Assembly: GCA_018266105.1 (NCBI GenBank)
Contig: JAFEBA010000081.1
Location: 62,001 to 126,000, forward strand
Reading direction: 5' to 3'
DNA from: a bacterium
GTDB lineage: Bacteria > Vulcanimicrobiota > Xenobia > Xenobiales > JADMJV01
DNA: 64,000 nucleotides
The notes beneath the pieces are model-generated. The model saw only the letters and a program-made list of their open reading frames with translations. It did not search any database and was not told the DNA's origin. Positions 8,009 through 22,420 of the stretch are shown in pieces. The position numbers were made by a program, and so were the translations under genes. Each line of letters begins with the position of its first letter. The stretch's first letter is position 1.

Positions 8009-8274
8009 AAATGACTCGGTCCGAACTGGTGGAACTGTTTGAGGAGTTCTTACAGCTCACCGATCGGCAACAACTGCTGCGTGAGGAACTCCTGCAATTG
8101 CAGATGTTTGGGAAAAGGGCTACGGAGGAGCGCGTGGCGGCCCAAATGGAGGAGCAACAGGCAAAGTTGGACGAGATAGAAAGGATCCGAATGCAGTTGA
8201 TGCTGCCCATTTTGGAGAAATTGGCGGCCTTCATCGCTTCGGTCAGACCGACCAGTGCTGCCGCCAGTTCCTAG
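8005..8274 (+). CDS. Small coiled-coil protein
   Basis: The product has 89 residues. The ATG overlaps the previous stop in an ATGA junction, so translation is coupled. It is almost entirely amphipathic helix (LVELFEEFLQLTDRQQLLREELLQLQMF; EEQQAKLDEIERIRMQLMLPILEKLAAFI), highly charged, ending in an Ala/Ser-rich tail. It overlaps the next gene by 20 bp. Its size and setting next to a radical SAM enzyme would fit a recognition or adaptor peptide, but that is inference. No family is recognised. Confidence 0.7.
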   Translation: MKMTRSELVELFEEFLQLTDRQQLLREELLQLQMFGKRATEERVAAQMEEQQAKLDEIERIRMQLMLPILEKLAAFIASVRPTSAAASS

Positions 8275-10132
8275 CCCGGACTTGCTCCCGGCCGTGCCCT
8301 CAGCCGGCCTCTCCGGCCCTGTTCTGCTGCTCTTTCCGCCCCAGTGGACACCGCAGAATCCGTCTTTCGGACTGACCTCTCTGGGCGGACACTTGCGTCA
8401 CAAAGGCCTGAAAACACATCTAATGGACCTGAACCTACGTTTCTACGAGGAAGTTCTGGCGCCTGAGCATCTTCTTTACTGCCGAGAACTGACACGCTCG
8501 CGGGCCGAGCACCTGCGCAACCGCTGCAAGTTCCGCCTGATGTTCTCGGTGGAAGGCAAGCATCTGGAGCGAGATGCGGCCCACCTGCTGCGCCTTGACG
8601 AACTCCTGGAACGACCAGAAGACCCCTGGGAAGCCGCCGCCCGAGGCGTTGAGGAGGCGCTCAACTGTCTGCGTTCACGCGAGCACTTCTACGAGCCCGC
8701 TCGTCTGGTTCCGTCTCTGGTGCTGCTGGATGAAGCGCTAGACCTGGCCGCGGCTCCCTACGACACCCATCTGGCCCTGAACGATTTTCGCGCAACCCGC
8801 TATCCTTTGACGGTGGAGGCCATGGAGGCAGCCACCGAGGATAGCTGGGGTAACCCTTTCCTGGGCTTGATGAAAAAATGGCTGCCCGAGCTCGTCGCCT
8901 GCAAACCCTCGATGGTGGCCCTCTCGATCAGTTCTTTCTCTCAAATCTTAGCCGGCTTGACGCTGGCACGCCTGGTCAAGCAGGCCTTACCGGACATCCA
9001 CCTGACCCTGGGCGGCAACTTCTTTGGGCGTGTGGCCGACCGGCTGCAGAAAAAGCCCGAATTCTTTGAACTATTCTGCGATAGCCTGGTGGTCGGAGAG
9101 GGAGAAGTGGCTTTTGAGCAGCTGGCCCGAGCCGTGCGGGAAGGCCGCCCCCCGGAGCAGGTGGCCAGAGTCGTTACAGCCCGGGGGCGGGGCCCACTCC
9201 AGCCCGACCCCGCCGTCCCTCTAGAGGAACTCGGCCCCCTGGACCTGGCCGACCTGCCGTTGGAGCGTTATTTCTCACCGGAACCGGTGATTTGTATTCA
9301 AGCCAGCCGAGGCTGCTACTGGGGTCTGTGCAGCTTCTGTGATTCCTACTGGGGCGTCAAGCTGGACAAAAAGTCTACCCCCAGATTGGTGGCGGAACTC
9401 CAGCGCCTAAATGAACTCTACGGAGTCCGCCACTTCGAGTTCATCGACGAGTGTTTGACTCCCAAAGACATGGCGGACATGGCTCGGGCCATTCAAAAAA
9501 GCGGGCTGGCCATCCACTGGTTTGCCAATGCCCGCACCGAGAAAGGCTTCCTGAAGGTCCTGAGGCATCTGCCTCCGGCCGGCTGCTCCATGCTGCTGTG
9601 GGGCTTTGAATCGGCCAGCCCTCGAATTCTGAAGCTGCTGGCCAAGGGGGTGCATCCTTCGGAACGATGGAGGGTGTTGCAGGCGTCGGTGGCCGCGGGC
9701 ATCTGGAATTTTGCCTATGTCTTCTTCGGCTTCCCGGGCGAGACCCGAGAGGAAGCCGAGGAGACGATCCAGGGCCTCTGCAACAACACCGACCTGCTGC
9801 ACTCGTACGGACGAAGCATTTACACTCTGGGACGCCACTCACCGATGGCTCAAAATCCCGACAAATACGGATTGTCCGATCTGGTGGAGGGAGGCACCGA
9901 TCTATCGGTCAATCTCACCTACACCAATCATCTCGGCCCGGACCACGAAGAAGTCCAGCAGCGGGTGGAACTCTGCACTCGCCACTGCCGCCAGGCCTAC
10001 GGAGATCCCCTCTGGATGGCCCTGCGCAACCGCGAAAACCTGCATCTCTATCTGGTTCGCTACGGCACCCAGCAGATTCGGGAGTGGAGCCTGAGTCCGC
10101 GGCAACTGCAACAGGCGAGCTTTCAAAAATAA
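8255..10132 (+). CDS. B12-binding-domain radical SAM protein
   Basis: The product has 625 residues with a GTG start inside the preceding gene. An N-terminal cobalamin-binding-like domain (VLLLFPPQWTPQNPSFGLTSLGGHLRHKG; later VVGEGEVAFEQL) precedes the radical SAM barrel. The cluster motif near residue 352 is RGCYWGLCSFCD, i.e. C-x4-C-x2-C rather than the common C-x3-C-x2-C. Similar insertions occur in the RiPP-maturation-type B12 radical SAM enzymes. Later motifs FEFIDE, LLWGFESAS and FFGFPGET are typical of this superfamily. Substrate is unknown; the co-encoded Ala/Gly-rich and coiled-coil proteins are the obvious candidates. Confidence 0.9.
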   Translation: MLPPVPSPDLLPAVPSAGLSGPVLLLFPPQWTPQNPSFGLTSLGGHLRHKGLKTHLMDLNLRFYEEVLAPEHLLYCRELTRSRAEHLRNRCKFRLMFSVEGKHLERDAAHLLRLDELLERPEDPWEAAARGVEEALNCLRSREHFYEPARLVPSLVLLDEALDLAAAPYDTHLALNDFRATRYPLTVEAMEAATEDSWGNPFLGLMKKWLPELVACKPSMVALSISSFSQILAGLTLARLVKQALPDIHLTLGGNFFGRVADRLQKKPEFFELFCDSLVVGEGEVAFEQLARAVREGRPPEQVARVVTARGRGPLQPDPAVPLEELGPLDLADLPLERYFSPEPVICIQASRGCYWGLCSFCDSYWGVKLDKKSTPRLVAELQRLNELYGVRHFEFIDECLTPKDMADMARAIQKSGLAIHWFANARTEKGFLKVLRHLPPAGCSMLLWGFESASPRILKLLAKGVHPSERWRVLQASVAAGIWNFAYVFFGFPGETREEAEETIQGLCNNTDLLHSYGRSIYTLGRHSPMAQNPDKYGLSDLVEGGTDLSVNLTYTNHLGPDHEEVQQRVELCTRHCRQAYGDPLWMALRNRENLHLYLVRYGTQQIREWSLSPRQLQQASFQK

Positions 10133-10678: not shown

Positions 10679-11074
10679 ATGATCGAATTCACCTCAGCAT
10701 ACGAAACCGGGTTTCCCGAAGTCGATCGTCAGCATAAAAAGCTCTTCGACACGCTCAACACTTTAGAGAAAGACATTGAACGCGGCATGGTGGAACACGT
10801 GCTGCCAATGACCCTCGTCTTCCTCAAAACCTACACCAGGCACCATTTTTCTTTGGAAGAGGGCTGCATGGCCAAACACCAGTGCCCAATTGCCGAGAAA
10901 AACAAGCAAGCGCACCGGAACCTGATCGAACTGGTACCGACCTTTGAAGAACGCCTGAGTCGCGAGGGTCCGACCGAAAAGCTGGCCAAAGACATTTACG
11001 ACTTTCTGGTCAACTGGCTTTCGGGGCATATCCTAAAGATCGATACCCACCTTCGTTCCTGCAAGGGACGCTAG
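10679..11074 (+). CDS. Hemerythrin-family di-iron oxygen/NO-binding protein
   Basis: This 131-residue four-helix protein begins MIEFTSAYETGFPEVDRQHKKLF and has the hemerythrin pattern: H19, HHFSLEEGCM, QAHRNLI, and WLSGHILKID near the C-terminus. One canonical ligand looks substituted. In the usual P-x4-H-x3-H block the first His is Asn here (CPIAEKNKQAH), so the diiron site may be incomplete or differently coordinated. There is no Shine-Dalgarno sequence, and the FNR-type promoter predicts an almost leaderless mRNA. Such proteins bind O2 or NO, fitting a low-oxygen/NO programme. The stop overlaps the convergent coiled-coil gene by 4 bp. Confidence 0.88.
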   Translation: MIEFTSAYETGFPEVDRQHKKLFDTLNTLEKDIERGMVEHVLPMTLVFLKTYTRHHFSLEEGCMAKHQCPIAEKNKQAHRNLIELVPTFEERLSREGPTEKLAKDIYDFLVNWLSGHILKIDTHLRSCKGR

Positions 11075-11832
11075 GCGAAATCTTCGTCAAAAGCACTACC
11101 CTCCAGGAGAAAGTCTTCGCGTTCGGCCTCAGAGAGTTGCCGTTCCAGGGAGGAAAGCTGCTCGCGGCGGTCCTGGAGTTCTTCTTCCAATTCCTCCTCC
11201 AGGACGGTATCCAGAACGCGATCCAGCTCACCGGACGCCTGAATACGCTCGGCCCGAGCCTTCTGCTCCTGGAGTCGCGCGTTCAACTGCAAAAGAGAAG
11301 CCAGACTCGCACCTGCGGCCTGACATCTCAACTCCAGCTCGGCCTCCATATCTGAACGCCGGGCTGACAGCTCGCGAGCCGCGAAATTTGCAACCTCCAA
11401 CTCCTGGTTGCGCTCCTTCAGCTGCTTCAGCCTTTCACTTGCCTCCGAAACCTGGCCTGACAACTGCTGAGAAAGCAGGCCGCCAGGCTGGTCTTGCTCG
11501 TGACACGCAAAGCGAAGCCTCTCGCATTGTTTCTGAAGCAGGTCGATCCGTTCCGCCAGAGCGTCCAGCAAGACTTGCTGTTGTCCGTCCAGATAAGCTT
11601 GATAGATGCGCGTAATTCTACGCTTCTCACAAACAACCCCGGCCATTCGAGCCTTCAGCCTCAGCAGTTGGCGATAGCGTTCGGACTGCTCGCGACTCTC
11701 ATCAAGCGGCAGTCGCTGCTGCATCAAGCGGCATGCCTGGCGCAGTCGTTCACTCATCTCAAGAATCTCGACCGTGCGCCTGGCAATGGCATCAATGGGC
11801 GTTCTCTCTCGTTGGGATTGCGTGAGATTCAT
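11071..11832 (-). CDS. Long coiled-coil protein with C-terminal LLEGSAFD motif
   Basis: The product has 253 residues from the ATG at 11830-11832, preceded by AGGAG (10-nt spacing). Almost the whole protein is heptad-rich helix (VEILEMSERLRQACRLMQQ; ERLKQLKERNQELEVANF; LDTVLEEELEEELQDRREQL). It has no membrane segment or signal. The C-terminus LLEGSAFDEDFA resembles LLKGSGFDGEV at the end of another coiled-coil protein (19767-20468) in the chemosensory operon. The two may be distant paralogues or share a partner. It is transcribed divergently from the MCP gene. Function unknown. Confidence 0.75.
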   Translation of the reverse strand: MNLTQSQRERTPIDAIARRTVEILEMSERLRQACRLMQQRLPLDESREQSERYRQLLRLKARMAGVVCEKRRITRIYQAYLDGQQQVLLDALAERIDLLQKQCERLRFACHEQDQPGGLLSQQLSGQVSEASERLKQLKERNQELEVANFAARELSARRSDMEAELELRCQAAGASLASLLQLNARLQEQKARAERIQASGELDRVLDTVLEEELEEELQDRREQLSSLERQLSEAEREDFLLEGSAFDEDFA

Positions 11833-11955
11833 GACCGAACCACTCCTAATTTTAGCAGCCAATTCTGACTGTCTCGCCGGACTGTGCCACATTCTGGTTT
11901 TACCCAACGAAATGCAAGTGAACTCACAGAATAGAACCTTTCGCGCCACAAGATC

Positions 11956-11969
11956 CTGACCCAAGTCAT
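11956..11969 (+). promoter_or_regulatory. FNR-type box of the chemosensory operon
   Basis: The sequence is CTGAC-CCAA-GTCAT. Its centre is 32 bp from the centre of TAAATT (11992-11997), predicting a start near 12004. That leaves a 28-nt leader with GCAGGGG before the MCP start. It lies between the divergent coiled-coil and MCP genes. Confidence 0.72.
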
Positions 11970-12031
11970 GTTATGAAACAACAATTCACGATAAATTAGG
12001 CAACACATCTTTCTGCAGGGGTCTGTTGCCT

Positions 12032-13189
12032 ATGAAAGCCAACCTACGTACGAAGTTCATTCGATTGACGATACTTGCCCTCCTCACGAACCTGACCACG
12101 GTAGCCTCCGCACTCCTCCATTGGCCCGCCGTGATTACAGCACTCCTGGCCATGGTGAGCTTTGGCCTGGTGGCCTGGTGGAGCAGTTACCAATCCGATG
12201 ATCTGTGTCGTCCCTTGGAACTCGCCCTGAGCGCAGTGTCGGAATATTGCCAGGGAGACCTGAGGCGCTCGCTCAGCAGCTCCCGCCAGGACCAGCTGGG
12301 CGAATTGCTGAACTCCTTAGAGAAGCTGCGCGCGGCCTACCGAGCGCAAATCCAGCAGGTCCAGGCCGCCTCGGAATCCAATCACAGCGCCGCTCAAAAC
12401 ATTCAGGCATCGGCCAGCGAAGTGGCCGAAGCCTCGCTGGACATGGCGCGCGGAATCGCCGAGGCCACCTACACCGTGGAGGACGTTCGCCAGACGGCCC
12501 TCACTTCCGAGCAGAAGGCCAAGGTGATGGCTGAAACGGCTCAAGAAGCGGCCCAGGTAGCGGCCCAGGGTCAGCTGGTCACCCAGATGACTCAGCAAGA
12601 GATGGAGCAAGTCCGTTCCACAATGGACTCGATTGCGGAAAGCATTTTGCAGTTGAGCGGCCAGAGTGTGGCCATTGCTAACCTGATTGGTTCGGTGAAT
12701 GACCTGGCCGAGCAGTCCAATGTGCTGGCAGTGAATGCTTCCATTGAGGCGGCCAAAGCGGGCGAATTCGGCCGAGGCTTCGCGGTAGTGGCTCAGGAAG
12801 TCAAGAGCCTGGCCGACGAGTCCAAGCAGGCGACCAATCAGGTTCGAGCCATTCTGCAAGAAATCGAGCGTTCCACCTCGGCCGCGGTCATGGTGGCCGA
12901 GCAAGGCTCCAAGACCACTCAGACGGCCCTGAAACAGGCCACTGAAGCCGGGGACGCCATCCGCAGCCTGGGCGGGCGAGTCGTTCTGGCGGCCCAAAGC
13001 GCAGCCCAAATCAGTGTCTCCAGCGCCACCCAGTTGACCGGGATGGAGCAGGTGACCGAGGCCATGAAAGGCATCCGCGAAGGCAGTAGCCTGATGGCGC
13101 CCTGCATGAGTCGCCTTTCAGACCTTGCCGCCCAACTGGAAGACCTTTCGGCCCGACTCAATGCGTCGGTTGAAGGCTATCAGTTATGA
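12032..13189 (+). CDS. Methyl-accepting chemotaxis protein without an extracytoplasmic sensor domain
   Basis: The product has 385 residues from ATG 12032; an in-frame TTG at 12026 is the alternative. Two closely spaced hydrophobic segments (about 10-30 and 33-50) form a hairpin with no periplasmic domain. They are followed by a HAMP-like linker and a long signalling coil. The hairpin tip is canonical for kinase contact: DLAEQSNVLAVNASIEAAKAGEFGRGFAVVAQEV. With no ligand-binding domain, sensing must be membrane-state based, cytoplasmic, or delegated to partner proteins. First gene of the chemosensory operon, controlled by an FNR-type box. Confidence 0.93.
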   Translation: MKANLRTKFIRLTILALLTNLTTVASALLHWPAVITALLAMVSFGLVAWWSSYQSDDLCRPLELALSAVSEYCQGDLRRSLSSSRQDQLGELLNSLEKLRAAYRAQIQQVQAASESNHSAAQNIQASASEVAEASLDMARGIAEATYTVEDVRQTALTSEQKAKVMAETAQEAAQVAAQGQLVTQMTQQEMEQVRSTMDSIAESILQLSGQSVAIANLIGSVNDLAEQSNVLAVNASIEAAKAGEFGRGFAVVAQEVKSLADESKQATNQVRAILQEIERSTSAAVMVAEQGSKTTQTALKQATEAGDAIRSLGGRVVLAAQSAAQISVSSATQLTGMEQVTEAMKGIREGSSLMAPCMSRLSDLAAQLEDLSARLNASVEGYQL

Positions 13190-13225
13190 ACACGAGCCTG
13201 CGTTCGCGAAATCCCGGGGCGGGCC

Positions 13226-13687
13226 GTGGTCAGTGACCTCTTTGTCTTCAATCTGGCCGGCCACCGAATTGGCCTGCCTCTAGACTCGGTCATCCGAGTC
13301 TTTCAGGCCGTCGAAATCAGCCCGTTGCCGCAAGCCCCGCCGTCTGTGTTGGGAGTCGTTAACGTTCGCGGCCGCCTCCTTCCCGTGCTCGACATCCGCG
13401 CCCGCTTCGGCCTGGCCGCTCAAGAGCTCCAGGTTTCCAATCAGATGGTCATGATCCAGTCCCAAAAGCGACAGCTTCTGATTCTGATCGACTCTTCGGT
13501 GGGCGTGGTGGCCTGTAATCTCCAGGACCAGATTGCAGCCGAGGAGCTTGACCCCCGTATGGTTTGGATGGATGCGGTCATTCGCAGCATTGACGGAGTC
13601 GTTTATGTCCACAATGTGGAGCGCTTCCTCAGCCTGGAGGAGGAGAGTATCCTGAGCCAGGTTCTGACCGAAAGGCAATGCTCATGA
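13226..13687 (+). CDS. cheW: CheW-like coupling protein (first of two)
   Basis: This 153-residue CheW domain starts VSDLFVFNLAGHRIGLPLDSVIRVFQAVEISPLPQAP. It contains the family block VLGVVNVRGRLLPVLDIRARFGL, and the second subdomain has ILIDSSVGVVACNL. The GTG start at 13226 is used; a 16-codon reading frame (13186-13236) overlaps upstream and is probably not a gene. It couples the MCP to CheA. It overlaps the second CheW gene by 10 bp. Confidence 0.92.
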   Translation: MVSDLFVFNLAGHRIGLPLDSVIRVFQAVEISPLPQAPPSVLGVVNVRGRLLPVLDIRARFGLAAQELQVSNQMVMIQSQKRQLLILIDSSVGVVACNLQDQIAAEELDPRMVWMDAVIRSIDGVVYVHNVERFLSLEEESILSQVLTERQCS

Positions 13688-14190
13688 ACGACGCCGAGCT
13701 TTTGCGAAAGCGCGCTCGTCTGCTGGCGGAGGCGCGCAACGAAGACGAATCGGTCAAGCTTGAGGTCCTTCTCTTTGCCTTAAACAGTCAGCATCTGGCA
13801 GTGGACAAGGCCAGGGTGGAAAACGTGCTCCGCCTTCAGTCCCAAAGCCTGACACCTCTGCCCGGCTGTCCAGGATGCATCGCCGGGTTGATCAACTTCT
13901 CGGGGGAGCTTCTCCCGCTGGTGAGAGGCAATCACTTACTCTTCGGGATCACCGAGCCGTCCAGGCCTGAGACAACCATTGTGGTCTTAAAGGCGGGCGA
14001 CGAAAACTATGGTTTGCTGGTCGACGAAATCGTGGGCATCCGACAGATTCCCTGCAACCAGCTGCTCCTTCCCTCGCGACAAAACCTGTCACCATGGATC
14101 GCCTCGGTTACACGGGACGATATCACCCTGATCGACGTGGATGCACTTTTGACTCATCAAAACCTTGGCTTTGGAGAATCCGGAACATGA
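13678..14190 (+). CDS. cheW: CheW-like coupling protein (second of two)
   Basis: The product has 170 residues. A 25-residue charged N-terminal extension (NDAELLRKRARLLAEARNED) precedes a CheW domain (VLLFALNSQHLAVDKARVENVL; CIAGLINFSGELLPLVRGNHLLF; YGLLVDEIVGIRQIP). The extra N-terminal helix and a Cys pair (GCPGC) distinguish it from its neighbour. Two CheW proteins in one operon can give different array composition or bind different receptors. It overlaps CheA by an ATGA junction. Confidence 0.92.
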   Translation: MLMNDAELLRKRARLLAEARNEDESVKLEVLLFALNSQHLAVDKARVENVLRLQSQSLTPLPGCPGCIAGLINFSGELLPLVRGNHLLFGITEPSRPETTIVVLKAGDENYGLLVDEIVGIRQIPCNQLLLPSRQNLSPWIASVTRDDITLIDVDALLTHQNLGFGESGT

Positions 14191-17100
14191 GGGAGGAATT
14201 CGGTCAAAACCTGGAGGCGCTCTTTCAGGAAGAATCCAGTCAACTGCTACGGGCCATGCGAGACGGCCTTGGGCGCCTTCATTCCGAGGAAGCAGCCGAC
14301 CCAGAAACGATCCAAACCGAGCTGCGAAGAGCCGCCCATACCTTGAAGGGCGGCGCCCGCGCCACCGAACAGCCGGAGGCCGAGATGTTGGCCGAGTCGC
14401 TTGAACGAGCTCTCAAGATGGTCAAGCCAGACCAGCTTGCCCGCTCGAGCTCGGGCCAGGAGTTTCTACTCCAAACAATTCAGCTTCTCTCCGACTGTCT
14501 GGACCCGGACCGGCGGCCGGCCTCCTCCGTCATTCAGAGTCGCCTGGAGCAATTGGACCAACTCCCGAGTCAAATCTCCGTGCCTGAAACGCCAGCGGGT
14601 GCACAGTCGGAATTGGACCTTGTGTTTCGTGGGGAAGCGGCTCACTGCATTCAAGCTTTACGGACCGCCCTGAGTCATTGGGGACGACCTGCCTTCCCGG
14701 CCCAACTGAAGCAGGCTGCGACCGCCGCAGCCGACCTCGAGGGCGCGGCCCGCTCGACCGATCAGCCGGTGCTCGAAATCCTGGCTGAACACCTCAAGTC
14801 TTTGCTCCGCAAAAGTCTGCAGCAAAACTGTGCCTGGAGTCATGAACGCGCCGAGACGGCCGACCAGGTGATTGGTCGCTGCCATCAGATCGTTGCCGGC
14901 GAATCGACACCCTCGGCCGAGCAAGTCATGGAATTGCTCGCAAGAATCGCCCGGGCGGAGGAGCAGGTCCTTGAATCGACCGAGGCCGTTTTCGAAAGCT
15001 CGGAAATCCCGTCAGCCTCCGAATCCCAGGCTCTATCACTGGTGCCATCCCGGGAGGTGAGCTTCGAAACCGGACTGCGTCAGACGTTCAAGGAAGAGGT
15101 TGAGGAAAAACTGATTGAGCTGGGAGACATCCTGGTCGCGCTCGAGCAGAAACCCGATCCCAACAACCTTGAATCGGTATTTCGCCACTTCCATAACCTC
15201 AAGGGTGCGGCCCGGAGCGTGGGTGCTGTGGCCATGGAGGGTCTGTGCCAGTCCGCTGAAAGCCTGCTGGCTCAGGTCAAGAAAGGCCTGGTCAGGTTAG
15301 AATCCGGGGTGCTTGACGGTCTGCACGAGACGGCCAACCTGCTCAACGCCTTGGGACGGGATCATGAGCAACCCCACCTGCAGAGTGTCAGAAAGTGTAT
15401 TGCCCTGCTCGACGCTCTGGCCGAAGGCAAAAATCCGGCACCAAACCACTCGCTCGAGATTCCAGCCATTTCTCCTCAAGATCTTTCCAGGACCGACCTG
15501 GAGTCTATTCGGATCTCATCACGGAAGCTGCAAAAACTGGCATCCCAAATCCAGGAACTGCTCTCCCTGAAGCTGGCTTCTCAACAACGAGTGCTTGAAC
15601 TCAGGCAGATCAATGCCCGACTGAAGAACTGGGAGAACGAATGGAAACGCCTGCAGCCGCGCCTGAAAGAATTGGACGTCCCCGCGGCCGTAAAGGAGTT
15701 TCTGAACTTCAACTCCGGTTTTGCCAATGAGCTCAAACAGAGCCTGACTTCTTTAACCCGAGCGACCGATCAAGACAGGCGCAATACGACCGCTCTGGTA
15801 GACAGCACCCAGGAACAGTCCAAGCGGCTTTTGATGAGCCCGTTCTCCACCATTCTGGGGCGCTTTCCGAAGATCGCGCGAGACCTGGCCCAGAGCCTTG
15901 GAAAAAAGGTTGAGGTCCAGATCGAGGGAGCCGAACTCGAGAGCGACCGTCGAATTCTGGAAAGGCTGAACGACCCTCTCCTGCATTTAGTCCGCAATGC
16001 CATCGACCACGGCATAGAGCCCCCGGAGCAAAGAATTCACTCCAACAAGCCGGCCCAAGCGCGTCTGAAGATCTCGGTTTACCCCTATCGCGGAAGTCAG
16101 CTCCAGTTAACCATTCAGGACGACGGAGCGGGGGTCGACCTGTCCAAAGTTCGTCAGATCGCTCGCGAGAAAAATCTGGTCAGTCCTCAACAGGCGGAGA
16201 GTGCCTCCGACCAGGAGGTTTTGCAGTGGATCTTCCTCTCGGACCTATCAACACGCTCAAGCGCCAGCGAAATCTCGGGACGAGGCCTGGGTATGGCCAT
16301 CGTCCGCGACCTGATTATGCAGTTGGGCGGTAGCATTCAAATCAACTCTCAGCGCGGCAAAGGAACCAGTCTGACCATCTCTTTGCCGACAACGCTGGCC
16401 ACCTTCCGCGGGATTCTCGTCAAGGTCTCCGGTCAAACTTTCGTCTTCCCCACCGCCAGGGTGCACAGAGTGTTACGAATCAGACCCGAACAAGAGATTC
16501 ACAAGCTGGAAGGCAAGCAGAACATCTTCCTGAACGCCCAGGTGCTCCCGATCCACCGTCTTTCCGAGCTGCTGCTGATGCCCTCCCCGCTCAACCCCAA
16601 GGGCCCCTATCTCACCTTAATCCTGGAAGCAGAGCAGCGCATGGCGGCCCTGATTGTAGACGAAATTGTCAGTGAACAGGAGGTACTGGTGAGGGAACTG
16701 AAGCCCCCTCTCTCACTCATACCCCACCTATCAGGCATTAGCTTACTGGGCACGGGCGAACTGGCTCCTATCCTGAACGTGAGCTACCTGGTTCAGCGCC
16801 AAGGTCCTCTGCATAGCCAGCTTCCTATCTCAAGCAAGCTGCCCAAAAAGCCCCTGCAGATCCTGCTGGTGGACGACTCCCTGACTTCACGTGCGTTGCT
16901 GAAGAGCATTTTGGAGTCGGCCGGATACAAAGTCGAGACCGCCTCGGACGGAGAGGAGGCGCTGGCGGCCCTGAGTCAGCGTCCATGGGACCTGGTGGTC
17001 TCGGACATTGAGATGCCGCGAATGAACGGGCTGGAACTCACGCGCCACATCCGGGCCGATCGCAAACGAACCGGGAGCCTCCCGGTTATCCTGGTCAGCA

Positions 17101-17216
17101 CCTTGCACAGCGATGAGGACCAACAAAGAGGTCTGGAAGTTGGGGCCAACGCTTACGTGGTCAAGGGCAACAGAGCCCAAACCAAACTACTTGAGGCGAT
17201 TCGCTCGCTACTCTAG
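14187..17216 (+). CDS. cheA: CheA-type chemosensory histidine kinase fused to a receiver, three Hpt modules
   Basis: The product has 1009 residues from ATG 14187, which overlaps the previous stop. Order: Hpt1 with H51 (RAAHTLKGGARAT); Hpt2 at about 140-260, degenerate (the aligned His is Ala in TAAADLEGAAR); Hpt3 with H336 (RHFHNLKGAARS); a dimerisation coil at about 430-530; HATPase from about 590 (LVRNAIDHGIE, DDGAGVD, GRGLGMAIV); a CheW-like domain at about 735-870; and REC at about 890-1009 (ILLVDDS; phospho-Asp in VVSDIEMPRMNG). This layout matches the Pil-Chp/ACF-like hybrid CheA enzymes more than flagellar CheA. No CheR, CheB or CheD gene lies nearby. Confidence 0.95.
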   Translation: MREEFGQNLEALFQEESSQLLRAMRDGLGRLHSEEAADPETIQTELRRAAHTLKGGARATEQPEAEMLAESLERALKMVKPDQLARSSSGQEFLLQTIQLLSDCLDPDRRPASSVIQSRLEQLDQLPSQISVPETPAGAQSELDLVFRGEAAHCIQALRTALSHWGRPAFPAQLKQAATAAADLEGAARSTDQPVLEILAEHLKSLLRKSLQQNCAWSHERAETADQVIGRCHQIVAGESTPSAEQVMELLARIARAEEQVLESTEAVFESSEIPSASESQALSLVPSREVSFETGLRQTFKEEVEEKLIELGDILVALEQKPDPNNLESVFRHFHNLKGAARSVGAVAMEGLCQSAESLLAQVKKGLVRLESGVLDGLHETANLLNALGRDHEQPHLQSVRKCIALLDALAEGKNPAPNHSLEIPAISPQDLSRTDLESIRISSRKLQKLASQIQELLSLKLASQQRVLELRQINARLKNWENEWKRLQPRLKELDVPAAVKEFLNFNSGFANELKQSLTSLTRATDQDRRNTTALVDSTQEQSKRLLMSPFSTILGRFPKIARDLAQSLGKKVEVQIEGAELESDRRILERLNDPLLHLVRNAIDHGIEPPEQRIHSNKPAQARLKISVYPYRGSQLQLTIQDDGAGVDLSKVRQIAREKNLVSPQQAESASDQEVLQWIFLSDLSTRSSASEISGRGLGMAIVRDLIMQLGGSIQINSQRGKGTSLTISLPTTLATFRGILVKVSGQTFVFPTARVHRVLRIRPEQEIHKLEGKQNIFLNAQVLPIHRLSELLLMPSPLNPKGPYLTLILEAEQRMAALIVDEIVSEQEVLVRELKPPLSLIPHLSGISLLGTGELAPILNVSYLVQRQGPLHSQLPISSKLPKKPLQILLVDDSLTSRALLKSILESAGYKVETASDGEEALAALSQRPWDLVVSDIEMPRMNGLELTRHIRADRKRTGSLPVILVSTLHSDEDQQRGLEVGANAYVVKGNRAQTKLLEAIRSLL

Positions 17217-17224
17217 GAGAGATA

Positions 17225-18757
17225 ATGAAAACCCTGGTTCTCGTGGTCGAGGATAGTCCAACTCAGGCAGCTCGCCTCAAGCATATTCTCCAGCAAAGTG
17301 GTTTCGACGTTTTGGTCGCGCCTAGAGCCAGCGACGCCCTCAAGATCGCGCGTTCAGAGAAACCACAGTTGATCGTCAGCGACGTCAGCATGCCCGAGAT
17401 GGATGGCTACGAGCTCTGTCGTCGGGTTCGAGCCGACGCTCAGCTCCAGAATTTAGCCATCTTGCTGCTCACCGGCCTGAGCGACCCGGAGGATATCATC
17501 CGCGGATTGGACGCCGGAGCGGATTCCTATTTAACCAAGCCCTACGAAGAATCAGACCTGGCCGCGCGCATTGAATTCGTACTTTCCAATCGAGTTGAGA
17601 AGCGAACCTCGGAGACCCCCCTGGAGGTCACCTTCCTTGGCAAGAAACACTGCATCAACTCAAGCCGCGAGCAAATTCTGGGACTGCTACTCTCGACCTA
17701 CGAATCTGCAGCCCAACAAAATCGGCGTTTGAACAGGGAAGTGTTAAGCCTGAAAATGCTGCAACGCGAACTCCAGCTCAAGGCCAAAACCAACGAGGAA
17801 GAGACCCGAGACTACCCCCTGGCACTGCGGGCCATGTTTTCCGATACGCGCAACCCGGTGCTGGCGGTCAATCGACAGGGGGGTTTGCTCGACCTCAACC
17901 AGAGCGCTCAAGCCACCTTTGGTCCTTCGGGGGCGGGCTTCATCCAGGCAATTGGGGATGAGCACCGCTCGCGCTGGAATGGATTACAGATCCAGTGGAA
18001 CGACCTGGAGCTGGGAGAGATGAACGGCGAACTTCAGACGTTCCCCTGCAGTTGGGCTGAACAGAGCGCCTATTTGGTCACGGTCAAGCCCGCACGCCCG
18101 CTTCAGGTGCCCTCTCAGGCGGGTGCCTCGAAGGGAGCCAGAAGTGAATTTCTAGGTCAGTTGAGCCTGCAACTGCGAGAAGCATTGCGCCCTCTTCAGA
18201 GCAGTCGGACACAACTGACCCCCGAGCAACAGAAGGCCTTAAAGAACCTTGAGAATCTTGACGTTCTGCGGCTCTCCTCACTCCAATGGCTGCTCTCGCC
18301 GCAACCGACCCGGATTGAGCAACTGCTGAAGGCCTGCCTCGAACACTTCTCGGTACAGACTCTGGCCGAGTCCAGAGAGGTTCAACTCCAGTTAGAGTGC
18401 CCCGACGGCGAGCCAGAATGGCAGGTGGATCCAGAGCTGGTGCAGTCGAGCCTGATCAGACTTCTACGCAACGCCATCCAGTATAGTCCCGAAGGCGCGA
18501 CCGTGAAGTTGAAAGCCACTCTTGAAGAAGATTGGTTGACGGCCGAGGTGAGCGACTCGGGACCAGGCGTGCCCCCTCCCCTGATACCCGAGCTGTTTAA
18601 CCTGTTTGCCACGGGGCCTGGGGGGGGTTTAGGAAGCGGACTCTACTATGCCCGCTGTGTCAGCCAGGCCCACGGCGGGAGCCTGGTTTATGAAGCCCTA
18701 AATCCCGGCGCCCTCTTTCGCCTCAAGTTACCCAGAAATGTCGAGAGCCGAAATTGA
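17225..18757 (+). CDS. Receiver-PAS-HATPase protein lacking the phospho-accepting histidine
   Basis: The product has 510 residues, 8 bp after cheA. An intact N-terminal REC (VLVVEDSPTQA; phospho-Asp in IVSDVSMPEMDG; LTKPYE) is followed by a coil, a PAS-like region (PVLAVNRQGGLLDLNQSAQATFG) and a kinase core. In the HisKA position the sequence is SEFLGQLSLQLREALRPL, where the usual H-E-(I/L)-R-T-P is missing, so it cannot autophosphorylate in the standard way. The ATPase has RLLRNAIQYSP and DSGPGVP, but its last G box is simplified (GPGGGLGSGLYYAR) and lies on an 8-G tract. It is probably an output or decoy receiver with a degenerate kinase fold, phosphorylated by the upstream CheA. Confidence 0.88.
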   Translation: MKTLVLVVEDSPTQAARLKHILQQSGFDVLVAPRASDALKIARSEKPQLIVSDVSMPEMDGYELCRRVRADAQLQNLAILLLTGLSDPEDIIRGLDAGADSYLTKPYEESDLAARIEFVLSNRVEKRTSETPLEVTFLGKKHCINSSREQILGLLLSTYESAAQQNRRLNREVLSLKMLQRELQLKAKTNEEETRDYPLALRAMFSDTRNPVLAVNRQGGLLDLNQSAQATFGPSGAGFIQAIGDEHRSRWNGLQIQWNDLELGEMNGELQTFPCSWAEQSAYLVTVKPARPLQVPSQAGASKGARSEFLGQLSLQLREALRPLQSSRTQLTPEQQKALKNLENLDVLRLSSLQWLLSPQPTRIEQLLKACLEHFSVQTLAESREVQLQLECPDGEPEWQVDPELVQSSLIRLLRNAIQYSPEGATVKLKATLEEDWLTAEVSDSGPGVPPPLIPELFNLFATGPGGGLGSGLYYARCVSQAHGGSLVYEALNPGALFRLKLPRNVESRN

Positions 18758-19770
18758 ACTACCATCCAGGCTTCGCTCTTTACCAGGAAGTGCTTCGGAC
18801 CCCCGGTCACTGGCGCGAATTTCTGGACCTGGCCCGTCGAAGGCAGCACGAATTTCGGAGCTGGCTCCAAGGGGAACGATTCGGCCAGGTGGTGTTCCTG
18901 GGCTGCGGCCCTCAAATCGGTGTGGCCCAAAGTGCCGCAGCCCTAACTCAACCTCTGGCCCGAATCAACACTCGTTCCGCAACCCCGCAAGACATACTGT
19001 TTAGCGAACTGCCTCCCTATGACCCAAGGATCAAGACTCTGGTCGTGATGCTATCCAGGGGGGGCTGGTCAGGCTCGGGCCTGCGCGCGCTACGTCTACT
19101 GCGCGCCCGGGACCCGCGCGCCGTGACTCTGGCCATTACCAACCAGGAGGGCAAGATCTCCACGGAGTGCGACCGTAGCATATGCACCTCTGCTTACCCA
19201 GATCTGTCCCTTTCAGGAGTGCAGGCCAATTCGCTGGCCATTCTGGCCTGCTGGCAACTGGCCTTGTGGCTCTCCAGACGTCCGGAAGAACCGCCTGCGC
19301 TGGAGCCCTTGGGGGGGGAGAGTCTTACCACCGTCTGGGCGCGTGTGCGAGCCTGGTTGCGCCCGTCTCGCCCTCCACGCAATCTGTATCTGGTATCCTC
19401 CACCCCGATCCAGGGCCTTGCCCAAAGCCACGGAGCAAGCTGCTCCACCTTGAGCGGAATCCCGACCCATGCGAGCCTTTACAGTGGTCTGGCCCTCTCC
19501 ACCCTGCCTGCCCACTCGGCCGTAGTAGGTCTGACCTGCCCCTCCTTCCTGAAGGCCGAGCTTGCCGCTCTGGAGCGACTGCCCAACTCGGTTCGTAGCG
19601 CAAGCTTGGGAGGGGAAGAGCAGGCGGCCAAGGTCCCCATCCTGTGTCCGCTGGAAAACCTGGCCGACTTCAACTGGGCCCTGCTCGCCCCGCCGGTCAT
19701 CACTCTGCTAGCTCTGGCCTGCGCCCTCCAGTCAGGACGAAACCCAGATTTCAGAGGTGCTGGACAGTGA
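18754..19770 (+). CDS. SIS-domain (sugar-isomerase fold) protein inside the chemosensory operon
   Basis: The product has 338 residues. The TTG start overlaps the previous stop by 4 bp. Two SIS-like halves are visible: QVVFLGCGPQIGVAQSAAAL, then LVVMLSRGGWSGSGLRALRLL with TLAITNQEGKIS (the S-R-x-G loop of phosphosugar binding); and RNLYLVSSTPIQGLAQSHGA in the second half. The closest functional class is the AgaS/GlmS-isomerase type, which binds phosphorylated sugars. There is no glutaminase domain. Encoded among chemotaxis genes, it may act as a cytoplasmic sugar-phosphate sensor rather than a metabolic enzyme (inference). An 8-G tract lies at 19311-19318. Confidence 0.8.
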   Translation: MNYHPGFALYQEVLRTPGHWREFLDLARRRQHEFRSWLQGERFGQVVFLGCGPQIGVAQSAAALTQPLARINTRSATPQDILFSELPPYDPRIKTLVVMLSRGGWSGSGLRALRLLRARDPRAVTLAITNQEGKISTECDRSICTSAYPDLSLSGVQANSLAILACWQLALWLSRRPEEPPALEPLGGESLTTVWARVRAWLRPSRPPRNLYLVSSTPIQGLAQSHGASCSTLSGIPTHASLYSGLALSTLPAHSAVVGLTCPSFLKAELAALERLPNSVRSASLGGEEQAAKVPILCPLENLADFNWALLAPPVITLLALACALQSGRNPDFRGAGQ

Positions 19771-20468
19771 ACGAGAACTCGTCACCCAGTCTGGAATACC
19801 AAAGAACGCTGGCATCCTTCCAGAGAGCGCGTTCGGAATACCGGCAGTTACGTGAGGAATTCCTACGCTTCAAAGCCGGGCCGATGCAGCGAGACGAGAA
19901 CAAGCTCGAGGAGTTGCATCAGTCGCTGACGGAAGCATTGTCGGCCATCAGACTGACACACGAGCAACTTTCGAAAGTGCTCAAGCACGACCCCAGGGCC
20001 TGGGAACTCTACCAGCAGAGCCTGCAACTCGAGCGCGAACAATATCGTTTGGAGTCGAGGCTCAAGGACCTGAAAAGCGAGGCATCCAACAAAGCTCCTA
20101 CCCAAGAGTCCTCCTCCAGGCAATCCATGGATTTGCTGGCCGCCAGAATCATGCTTCAGGAGTCCCGCCGGCAGAGTCTCCAGGCGGAATGGGAGATTCA
20201 TCAGAGGCGGAACCAGGAATGGGAAACCATAGAGCTCATCCGGCAGCTTGGACCGCTGGAATTTCAAAACAGGTGCCGGCTGGAATTGGAGCGTTGCGGC
20301 CAATTTCTGGAGAGTGACCCAAGCACGGAGGAGAGACACCATTCCGAGCTTAGAGATCAGGTCGAGGCCGTGCAGAAGAGAATCTCGGAGAAGGTTCATC
20401 AACTGGAGGAGCAGCGTGAAGCGACTTCGGACTTACTGAAGGGGAGTGGGTTTGACGGTGAAGTTTAA
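19767..20468 (+). CDS. Coiled-coil protein of the chemosensory operon
   Basis: The product has 233 residues. The GTG start overlaps the SIS gene stop by 4 bp; the frame is open further upstream but only inside the previous gene. It is nearly all charged helix (LASFQRARSEYRQLREEFLRF; LYQQSLQLEREQYRLESRLKDLK; EAVQKRISEKVHQLEEQREA). It ends LLKGSGFDGEV, similar to the C-terminus of the coiled-coil protein at 11071-11832 (LLEGSAFDEDFA). Translational coupling implies a stoichiometric partner of the array or of the SIS protein. No family is recognised. Confidence 0.78.
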   Translation: MNENSSPSLEYQRTLASFQRARSEYRQLREEFLRFKAGPMQRDENKLEELHQSLTEALSAIRLTHEQLSKVLKHDPRAWELYQQSLQLEREQYRLESRLKDLKSEASNKAPTQESSSRQSMDLLAARIMLQESRRQSLQAEWEIHQRRNQEWETIELIRQLGPLEFQNRCRLELERCGQFLESDPSTEERHHSELRDQVEAVQKRISEKVHQLEEQREATSDLLKGSGFDGEV

Positions 20469-20507
20469 GAAGCAAATCAAAGCCACATCTTGGGGGAGTC
20501 GCTTAAG

Positions 20508-20729
20508 ATGACTCCCCAACAGCAACTTGCATCCGAACGACTGATCAGCGAATTGTCTCGTCGCTTTGGAGACGTGACTTCCCGAGCGGAAGTCACATCC
20601 CACGGATTGACTGTCTATTTAAAAACCAGCCCGGCCCGTTTCGCGGAGGTCGAAAAGTCCATCATGGATGTTCTGACCGACATTCTTCTCAACCAGGGCA
20701 TCCTGCTCATCCTCTTGCGAGAAGCATAG
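20508..20729 (+). CDS. Small alpha/beta protein, unknown
   Basis: The product has 73 residues from ATG 20508, preceded by a G-rich ribosome site (GGGGGAG, 20492-20498) about 9 nt upstream. An in-frame TTG at 20490 is less likely. The sequence (SERLISELSRRFGDVTSRAEVTSHGLTVYLKTSPARFAEVEKSIMDVLTDIL) suggests a helix-strand-helix fold. It lies 39 bp after the coiled-coil gene and is probably the last gene of the chemosensory operon, converging on the kinase gene. Function unknown. Confidence 0.65.
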   Translation: MTPQQQLASERLISELSRRFGDVTSRAEVTSHGLTVYLKTSPARFAEVEKSIMDVLTDILLNQGILLILLREA

Positions 20730-20737
20730 CCCGCTGC

Positions 20738-22420
20738 CTAGAACGACTGGAAAGCGCTGCCTCCGATAAACTCGCGCAAGACTGAAGTAGCCGGAATGGC
20801 CTCACTGTAGACGGGCACGAAGAGCTCCAGGAACTTGAGTAATTCATAGGCCTTGACCCGGGACGGGTGTTGGCGAGGAACTTCCAGCAGAAAGCGCCAG
20901 GCCTGATTGCGGAGCACAGCCGTCTCATAAACCAGGGTCGAGTTGAACATGGCGTCGCTGCGGTCCTGGTACGGAAAGATATATCGCTCCTCCCCTCGGC
21001 GAACGGAAGGCCAGCGTGAGATGGTGTCGGCCGCGGAGAACCCTCGATACTGCCTGTCTCGCACGATCCGGCGCAGCAAACGAGCGTCCGAGGTAAAGAT
21101 CCGGTTTTGCTCATCGATCACCAGTTGGGTCAGAGCGCTCACAAAAATGTGGTAGCGCTGGTCGGGTGGAACGCTGGGGAAGAGGCCGGGATTGAGGCCG
21201 TGAATGCCCTCGATGACCACGATCTGGTCGGCTCGTAGCTTCAAGCAAGGCCAGGATTCTCGGGCCGTGGGTGCGCCGGTGGCGAAATCGTATCGGGCCA
21301 TTCGCACCTCCTGGCCCTGAAGCAGAGAGCCTAAGGTCTGGTCTAATAACTCTAGATCGAGGGCTTCCAGGGCTTCAAAATCAAGTTCACCGAATTCATC
21401 CAGGGGAGTCTTGTCTCGACCACGGTAGTAGTTGTCCAGGCTGATCGGCACCGGCTGCAAGCCGTTGACCTGGAGCTGCACCGCCAGCCTGCGTCCAAAG
21501 GTGGTCTTGCCCGAAGAAGAGGGTCCAGCGATGCAAACCAGTCGCAACTTGTCCCGGCGCGAGGCGATCGAATCGGCGATCTCGGCAATCTTCTTCTCGT
21601 GCAGCGCCTCAGCCATCCTCACCACGTCATCGAAGCGGTCTTCCAGCGTTGCTTCGGTCAGATCGCCCACGGCCGCAACTCCAACCAATTGGTTCCAATC
21701 ACGGGTTTCTCGATAGGCTTTAAACAGCTTTTCGCTATTCTGGCCCTGTGGATTGGGCAAAGGCGAAGTGGCGGCCACGGCCGGAAAGCTGAGCACCACG
21801 CCAGGCGGATAGGGCATCACCTGGAGCCCGCTCAAACAGCCGGTGGACGGGGCGCAAGGACCCATCATCAACTGATGATGGCCCTCCAGTTCCAGCACGT
21901 GCATGCGCGGGGCGGCCCAACCCTTAATCAACTTTCGCTTGAATCCGAAGGGGTCATCCAGGCGGGTGCTGAGGGCTTCGACGGAGAGGGAATGGCGCTC
22001 AAAATCGACATCCCGCTCGATCAGTTCGGAGAGCAATTGATTGACCCGAGCGCACCACTCCAAGAGTTCACCCGAATGTCCCAGCAGCTCGTAATAATAA
22101 CCGCCCATCAGGGATTGGCCAATCATTAACTGCAGGTCTGGGAAATGCCGACGCACCAGACTCTGAAAGACATAGGTGGCGGTGCGGCGCAGGATAGCCT
22201 GACCCTCGGGACTCTGGCAGGTCACAACCGCCAGGCTGGATTCCCCGTCGATGGCGGTATCCAACGAAACCAGATGGTGGTTCAGCGTCGCCCCCACCAC
22301 CTGATTCTGACGCAGATAAAGCTCCCCCAGAAACTCGCAAATTCGAATTCCGACCGGCAGCTGGTGCAGGGTTCCATTGAACTCTACTCCAACCCGGTGG
22401 CCATTGCGCAACTCACTCAT
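20738..22420 (-). CDS. TGS/threonyl-tRNA-synthetase-like fused to uridine-kinase-type nucleoside kinase
   Basis: The product has 560 residues. The N-terminal about 60 residues form a TGS-like domain (GTLHQLPVGIRICEFLGELYL; VVGATLNHHLVSLDTAI). This is followed by a synthetase second-additional-like domain (HFPDLQLMIGQSLMGGYYYEL; IERDVDFERHSLS). The C-terminal half is a phosphoribulokinase/uridine kinase: Walker A GPSSSGKTTFGRRLA near residue 300, SLDNYYRGRDKTPLDEFGELDFE, and VVIEGIHGLNPGL. This architecture is a known family of nucleoside kinases of unclear in vivo substrate. The sequence looks complete. Confidence 0.93.
   Translation of the reverse strand: MSELRNGHRVGVEFNGTLHQLPVGIRICEFLGELYLRQNQVVGATLNHHLVSLDTAIDGESSLAVVTCQSPEGQAILRRTATYVFQSLVRRHFPDLQLMIGQSLMGGYYYELLGHSGELLEWCARVNQLLSELIERDVDFERHSLSVEALSTRLDDPFGFKRKLIKGWAAPRMHVLELEGHHQLMMGPCAPSTGCLSGLQVMPYPPGVVLSFPAVAATSPLPNPQGQNSEKLFKAYRETRDWNQLVGVAAVGDLTEATLEDRFDDVVRMAEALHEKKIAEIADSIASRRDKLRLVCIAGPSSSGKTTFGRRLAVQLQVNGLQPVPISLDNYYRGRDKTPLDEFGELDFEALEALDLELLDQTLGSLLQGQEVRMARYDFATGAPTARESWPCLKLRADQIVVIEGIHGLNPGLFPSVPPDQRYHIFVSALTQLVIDEQNRIFTSDARLLRRIVRDRQYRGFSAADTISRWPSVRRGEERYIFPYQDRSDAMFNSTLVYETAVLRNQAWRFLLEVPRQHPSRVKAYELLKFLELFVPVYSEAIPATSVLREFIGGSAFQSF

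Follow-up and report, generated by a model that had tools for sequence, protein, structure and literature searches.

The DNA analysed here is a 64,000-nucleotide stretch of contig JAFEBA010000081.1 (hereafter the window) from a bacterium of the phylum Vulcanimicrobiota, and it carries an intact chemosensory operon of eight open reading frames, all on the forward strand between positions 12032 and 20729. This operon is very probably a derived cluster of the alternative cellular function (ACF) class, and, as read from its sequence, it is an ACF cluster in which adaptation and output-kinase chemistry have been lost while every frame is still open. In order, the genes encode an MCP-like receptor of 385 aa (12032–13189; Pfam MCPsignal, 2.9e-31), a CheW-like coupling protein of 153 aa (13226–13687; Pfam CheW, 2.4e-22), a second of 170 aa (13678–14190; Pfam CheW, 8.4e-25), a CheA-REC hybrid of 1009 aa (14187–17216), a receiver-pseudokinase of 510 aa with a REC-linker-HATPase layout (17225–18757), a double-SIS-fold protein of 338 aa with a TTG start (18754–19770), a coiled-coil-rich protein of 233 aa with a GTG start (19767–20468), and a 73-aa protein with a hydrophobic C-terminus (20508–20729). 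Pfam places MCPsignal in the first, CheW in the second and third, two Hpt domains with HATPase, CheW and REC in the fourth, and REC with HATPase in the fifth; NCBIfam agrees on these five proteins (MCP, CheW, CheW, CheA with receiver, and receiver with HATPase). Codon-usage scores favour the annotated frame in all eight genes, including those for the SIS-fold, coiled-coil and 73-aa proteins, the last two of which are called on this measure, and the usage is host-like. The composition given in the earlier note is confirmed by the reading frames, the domain matches and the codon usage together. Its statement that all the genes are translationally coupled holds for the four overlapping junctions, namely the two CheW genes (10 nucleotides), CheW and CheA (ATGA), pseudokinase and SIS (TTGA), and SIS and coiled coil (GTGA), but not for the three with gaps of 36 (MCP to first CheW), 8 (CheA to pseudokinase) and 39 nucleotides (coiled coil to 73-aa gene). 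Within the operon, the coding strand shows no terminator-like site.

The signalling core appears complete from receptor to kinase. In the MCP, hydropathy gives two directly adjacent hydrophobic stretches, taken as transmembrane helices, at about residues 9–53; they leave no space for a periplasmic domain, which bears out the earlier description of this receptor. A HAMP-like stretch that Pfam does not recognise and the MCP signalling domain are also present. The CheA consists of an Hpt domain (H51, in AAHTLKGG), a degenerate Hpt copy that carries no histidine (about residues 143–244), another Hpt domain (H336, in RHFHNLKGA), HATPase, a CheW-like domain and a receiver. The motif context confirms H51 and H336 as the Hpt histidines, as had been proposed. 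Pfam, NCBIfam and a domain search find the P3-P4-P5 core, Pfam and the domain search detect no P2 domain, and the kinase, Hpt and receiver motifs are intact. Of the CheA proteins with multiple Hpt domains, more than 90% have a receiver and about 93% fall in the ACF and type IV pili (Tfp) classes (PMC10782961). In a quick tree, the window CheA lies on a long branch (0.98) within a 48-row group of CheAs from clusters that encode REC-linker proteins (SH-aLRT 98). Because this tree includes no named ACF reference sequences, class membership rests also on gene context and architecture. Multidomain response regulators are typical of the ACF class, and about 40% of them carry a kinase module (PMC3447774); the window cluster has such a regulator in its REC-linker-HATPase protein. 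CheR and CheB, the usual though not strictly defining core of ACF clusters, are absent at this locus.

The output protein belongs to a widespread family in which a receiver and a conserved linker precede a kinase module. Its receiver has D53 as phosphoacceptor, and the linker (about residues 126–200), with a motif around SxRxQILxLLLSTYE, is predicted to fold as a beta-hairpin and a long helix. The fold model is confident for REC and HATPase and not for residues 204–331. The earlier reading of this protein as REC-PAS-HATPase without a phospho-histidine stands for REC, HATPase and the missing histidine, but not for the PAS domain, which is below threshold in Pfam (E 0.04) and falls in a stretch modelled without confidence. 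Every one of the 24 aligned relatives that have a kinase module carries a histidine in the phospho-histidine column; the window protein carries another residue, and two possible placements of the His box give either Ser206 or a leucine within SEFLGQLSLQLREAL. Pfam reports no HisKA domain, a DHp profile made from the relatives fails to match the protein, and none of the five histidines (20, 142, 247, 374 and 483) is in a DHp-like place. The HATPase match is clear (Pfam, 2.1e-15), with N416, D444, G446, G448, G470 and G472 retained and the first N-box asparagine, nearly invariant among relatives, replaced by Arg412. Judged from these alignments, loss of the phospho-histidine is exceptional within the REC-linker family, and the protein should be unable to make phospho-histidine, with most of its ATP-binding motifs kept.

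Across species genomes of many phyla, the REC-linker protein was found in 80 loci, where it is often last in its cluster, and the usual order is CheW-CheR-CheW-MCP-CheA:REC-CheB-REC-linker-kinase. A check over all open frames places a CheA within 6 kb in 51 of these loci; 49 of the 51 have CheB and 37 have CheR, most of the others being cut by contig ends. The same kind of check finds neither a CheR nor a CheB gene in the window locus. The absence that had been noted is therefore supported, and it is unusual against both the REC-linker family loci and the four further CheA clusters of the host, each of which has CheR and CheB. The two exceptions without CheB are in Methanomicrobiales (loci L179 and L198); each has CheW-CheW, MCP, CheA-REC and a REC-linker-kinase, and CheR is missing as well from the stretch examined. 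A crude motif scan found no match to the consensus methylation site in the window MCP. No SIS gene occurs in any of the 51 CheA-associated REC-linker loci, nor in any of the 68 CheA loci, apart from that of the window, that were compared. A separate observation concerns a second regulator of this family: in the host (L112, G000:C90) and in a related genome (L111, G002:C44), a REC-linker-kinase with an intact histidine stands alone, and the sister genomes G001 and G003 (L107 and L104) have a full MCP/CheR/CheW-CheW/CheA-REC/CheB/REC-linker-kinase cluster at the point where L112 and L111 keep only the regulator. The output regulators are 77–90% identical across these loci, and the signalling core is missing in L112 and L111.

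The Pfam SIS match of the sixth protein is just under the cut-off (23.4 versus 25 bits; 5.6e-5), and the assignment is backed by homology to a phylum-wide double-SIS family; a profile search also matches it to PDB 2cb0, 1j5x and GlmS. A single-sequence fold reached a pLDDT (predicted local distance difference test) of 34, and this model was set aside. The protein has about 27% identity to the phylum's double-SIS paralogue (L118), and its homologous N-terminus begins at the TTGA overlap in which its start codon lies. The GCGSS motif of GlmD-type structures is GCGPQ in the window protein, the SRSGxTxE motif (SRSGETTE or SRTGNTTE in those structures) is SRGGWSGSG, and neither the E-x-R-H-G segment with the catalytic glutamate nor the C-terminal segment that follows NPD is present. 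The GlmD structures retain the ExRHG and C-terminal segments, as do most of the phylum paralogues, in which the second motif (SxSGxT) has itself drifted. The window protein is, to judge from its motifs, a divergent paralogue of the phylum-wide GlmD/GlmS-like protein in which the phosphate-binding and catalytic motifs are gone. Because these active-site motifs are lost, a working isomerase was rejected. The phylum-wide protein itself (L118, L119, L120, L121 and L123) adjoins chorismate synthase in L118.

A conserved gene order, which the earlier note had suggested looking for, was not seen: in the data compared the order is unique to the host, an outcome that the note itself had said would refute its reading. 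The host alone, out of 149 phylum genomes, has the window-type SIS gene; it is likewise the sole holder of the coiled-coil gene (28 genomes compared) and of the 73-aa gene (58 compared), and the coiled-coil gene has no NCBIfam match. Species genomes, viral contigs and plasmids were also searched for the SIS gene and yielded nothing but phylum paralogues; these peptide-pattern scans reach only close relatives of the protein, and a wider occurrence is possible. An order unique to the host argues against a conserved sensor module, although open frames throughout speak for an operon in use. So far the operon is known from one species and one genome.

Starting from what the sequence gives, that is, the composition and order of the genes, the intact CheA kinase and receiver motifs, and the loss of HisKA and of the SIS motifs, we infer the following mechanism. 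Input would reach the MCP-CheW-CheA array through the membrane and HAMP region of the receptor or through a partner protein, and CheA would be switched on or off with no methylation-based adaptation supplied by the cluster itself. Because no adaptation is encoded there, the output would follow the level of the stimulus and not its change. Phosphate would pass from H51 and H336 of CheA to two receivers, its own, which may serve as a sink, and that of the pseudokinase. Once phosphorylated, the pseudokinase would change in conformation and, by analogy with DivL, may act by binding, its likely targets being the translationally coupled SIS-fold pseudoenzyme and the coiled-coil protein. As a whole, a derived ACF cluster with a binding-based output is an explanation that we favour at somewhat under an even chance. 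Its mechanistic part, in which binding carries the signal and the SIS and coiled-coil proteins are the outputs, is more tentative and on balance rather doubtful. Its most far-reaching form seems unlikely: a hard-wired array without adaptation in which a phosphorylation-gated pseudokinase drives two partners, the pseudo-isomerase and the coiled-coil protein, so that dead enzymes in series would pass the signal on by binding alone.

The earlier note had instead proposed a sensory role: the SIS protein would bind a metabolite in the cytoplasm, for example a sugar phosphate, and pass this signal to the MCP/CheW/CheA array, taking over from a receptor domain. The MCP does lack a sensory domain and so needs an input partner; sugar phosphates are common ligands of the SIS fold; and the SIS gene overlaps the gene before it. 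With the phosphate-loop serines and the catalytic motif lost, however, a sugar-phosphate sensor is not favoured, and the gene follows the output regulator and is not beside the MCP. In addition, a SIS gene is absent from all the other CheA loci compared, and we consider this role improbable. The order from core to output regulator to SIS and coiled-coil genes makes outputs or scaffolds likelier than inputs; for the SIS protein, an output or scaffold partner downstream of the regulator would fit no less well than an input, and a binding partner of the pseudokinase would fit better than a sugar-phosphate sensor.

Two further explanations have about the same small chance. A duplicated or acquired chemosensory cluster could be decaying, with CheR, CheB and HisKA gone and the frames still unbroken. 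The long CheA branch, the confinement of the operon to one genome, and the host's lack of the core of another ACF cluster found in its sister genomes are all consistent with decay; eight open frames across 8.7 kb with host-like codon usage, the intact kinase, Hpt and receiver motifs of CheA, and the gain of lineage-specific genes, as opposed to losses alone, argue against it. It is similarly improbable that the SIS, coiled-coil and 73-aa genes merely share a transcript with a chemosensory core to which they are functionally unrelated, since the TTGA and GTGA overlaps, and a homologous SIS N-terminus that begins at the overlap, suggest otherwise, even though a conserved association was seen nowhere among the loci compared. 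Least probable is a pseudokinase that works in trans as a helper kinase, its ATPase domain phosphorylating a partner histidine such as that of a CheA Hpt; the retained ATP-binding motifs and the two histidine-bearing Hpt domains (H51 and H336) speak for it, and Arg412 in the N-box and the lack of detectable HisKA/DHp dimerisation helices speak against it.

Several points weigh against a binding-based output from an array without adaptation. Seven CheR genes elsewhere in the host genome could act in trans. The methylation scan was crude, and one of the eight other MCPs compared (L114, in the same genome) likewise gave no site. An input role for the SIS or the coiled-coil protein is still conceivable. 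The comparisons turned up no relative of the operon as a whole, so conservation cannot back a partnership of the SIS, coiled-coil and 73-aa proteins with the signalling core.

Upstream of the operon, the regulation by FNR that had been claimed found no support: the FNR site TTGATNNNNATCAA is absent from the 64 kb, and the best FNR-like matches upstream reach 7 of 10, a score shared by 176 positions of the window. A possible leader hairpin of 9 bp with an inner 6 bp (11997–12032, forward strand) stops at the MCP start codon, and its inner part holds the Shine-Dalgarno-like GCAGGGG; it is not above chance (z = -1.15), and Rfam gave no match in the window. Close upstream is a bacteriohemerythrin-like gene (PF01814; 10679–11074, forward), which makes oxygen or redox a possible theme of the operon. 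Between the two lies a divergent 297-aa gene with no Pfam match (11071–11964, reverse); the coiled-coil protein was compared with its product, and the two are unrelated. Further upstream is a radical SAM protein with a weak match to a B12-binding domain (8255–10132, forward). On the other side, a kinase-like gene (20738–22420, reverse), whose C-terminal half is similar to uridine kinases, has orthologues in the sister genomes G004 and G002, each interrupted within the match by a stop or frame break; no window genes lie near these orthologues, synteny is lacking, and an empty site could not be defined. A defence library scan gave only weak matches, which were dismissed.

ACF systems are chemosensory sets that control something other than swimming, and clusters with kinase-fused response regulators are common among them, with outputs that are mostly obscure. 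The window operon offers a natural test of how an array behaves without methylation and of whether a REC-linker module can signal without a phospho-histidine. With a single genome known to carry the operon, the general weight of the case is limited. In the open literature, we found no relevant publication on this combination or on SIS domains with chemosensory systems, and no compared locus combines loss of adaptation, a pseudokinase output and a pseudoenzyme partner. The ACF clusters with CheR-TPR and a REC-kinase regulator (PMC3447774; L104, L107, L133, L141 and L207) share with the window the two CheW proteins, the MCP, a CheA with Hpt and a C-terminal receiver, and the REC-linker output protein. 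The window differs from them in having no CheR or CheB, in placing the MCP first, in an output protein without HisKA and phospho-histidine, and in its extra SIS, coiled-coil and 73-aa genes. The Methanomicrobiales loci L179 and L198 also lack CheB and CheR in the stretch examined, but their kinase keeps the histidine and they have no SIS gene. The double-SIS fold is common to the GlmD/GlmS isomerase-domain family (PDB 2cb0, 1j5x and 1moq), the L118 paralogue and the window protein, from which GCGSS, SRSGxTxE, ExRHG and the C-terminal tail have been lost. DivL of Caulobacter is a pseudokinase proposed to act by binding and not by kinase activity (PMC4211667), and like the window protein it keeps the ATPase domain and lacks the phospho-histidine. 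DivL, however, has a tyrosine in a recognisable DHp helix, carries PAS domains and senses a separate receiver, whereas in the window protein the receiver is fused and no DHp is recognisable; if the proposed mechanism is true, the idea of a pseudokinase that acts by binding would extend to the end of a CheA pathway. The known type, then, would be the ACF cluster, and what appears to be new is the loss of adaptation, the pseudokinase output and the pseudoenzyme partner together.

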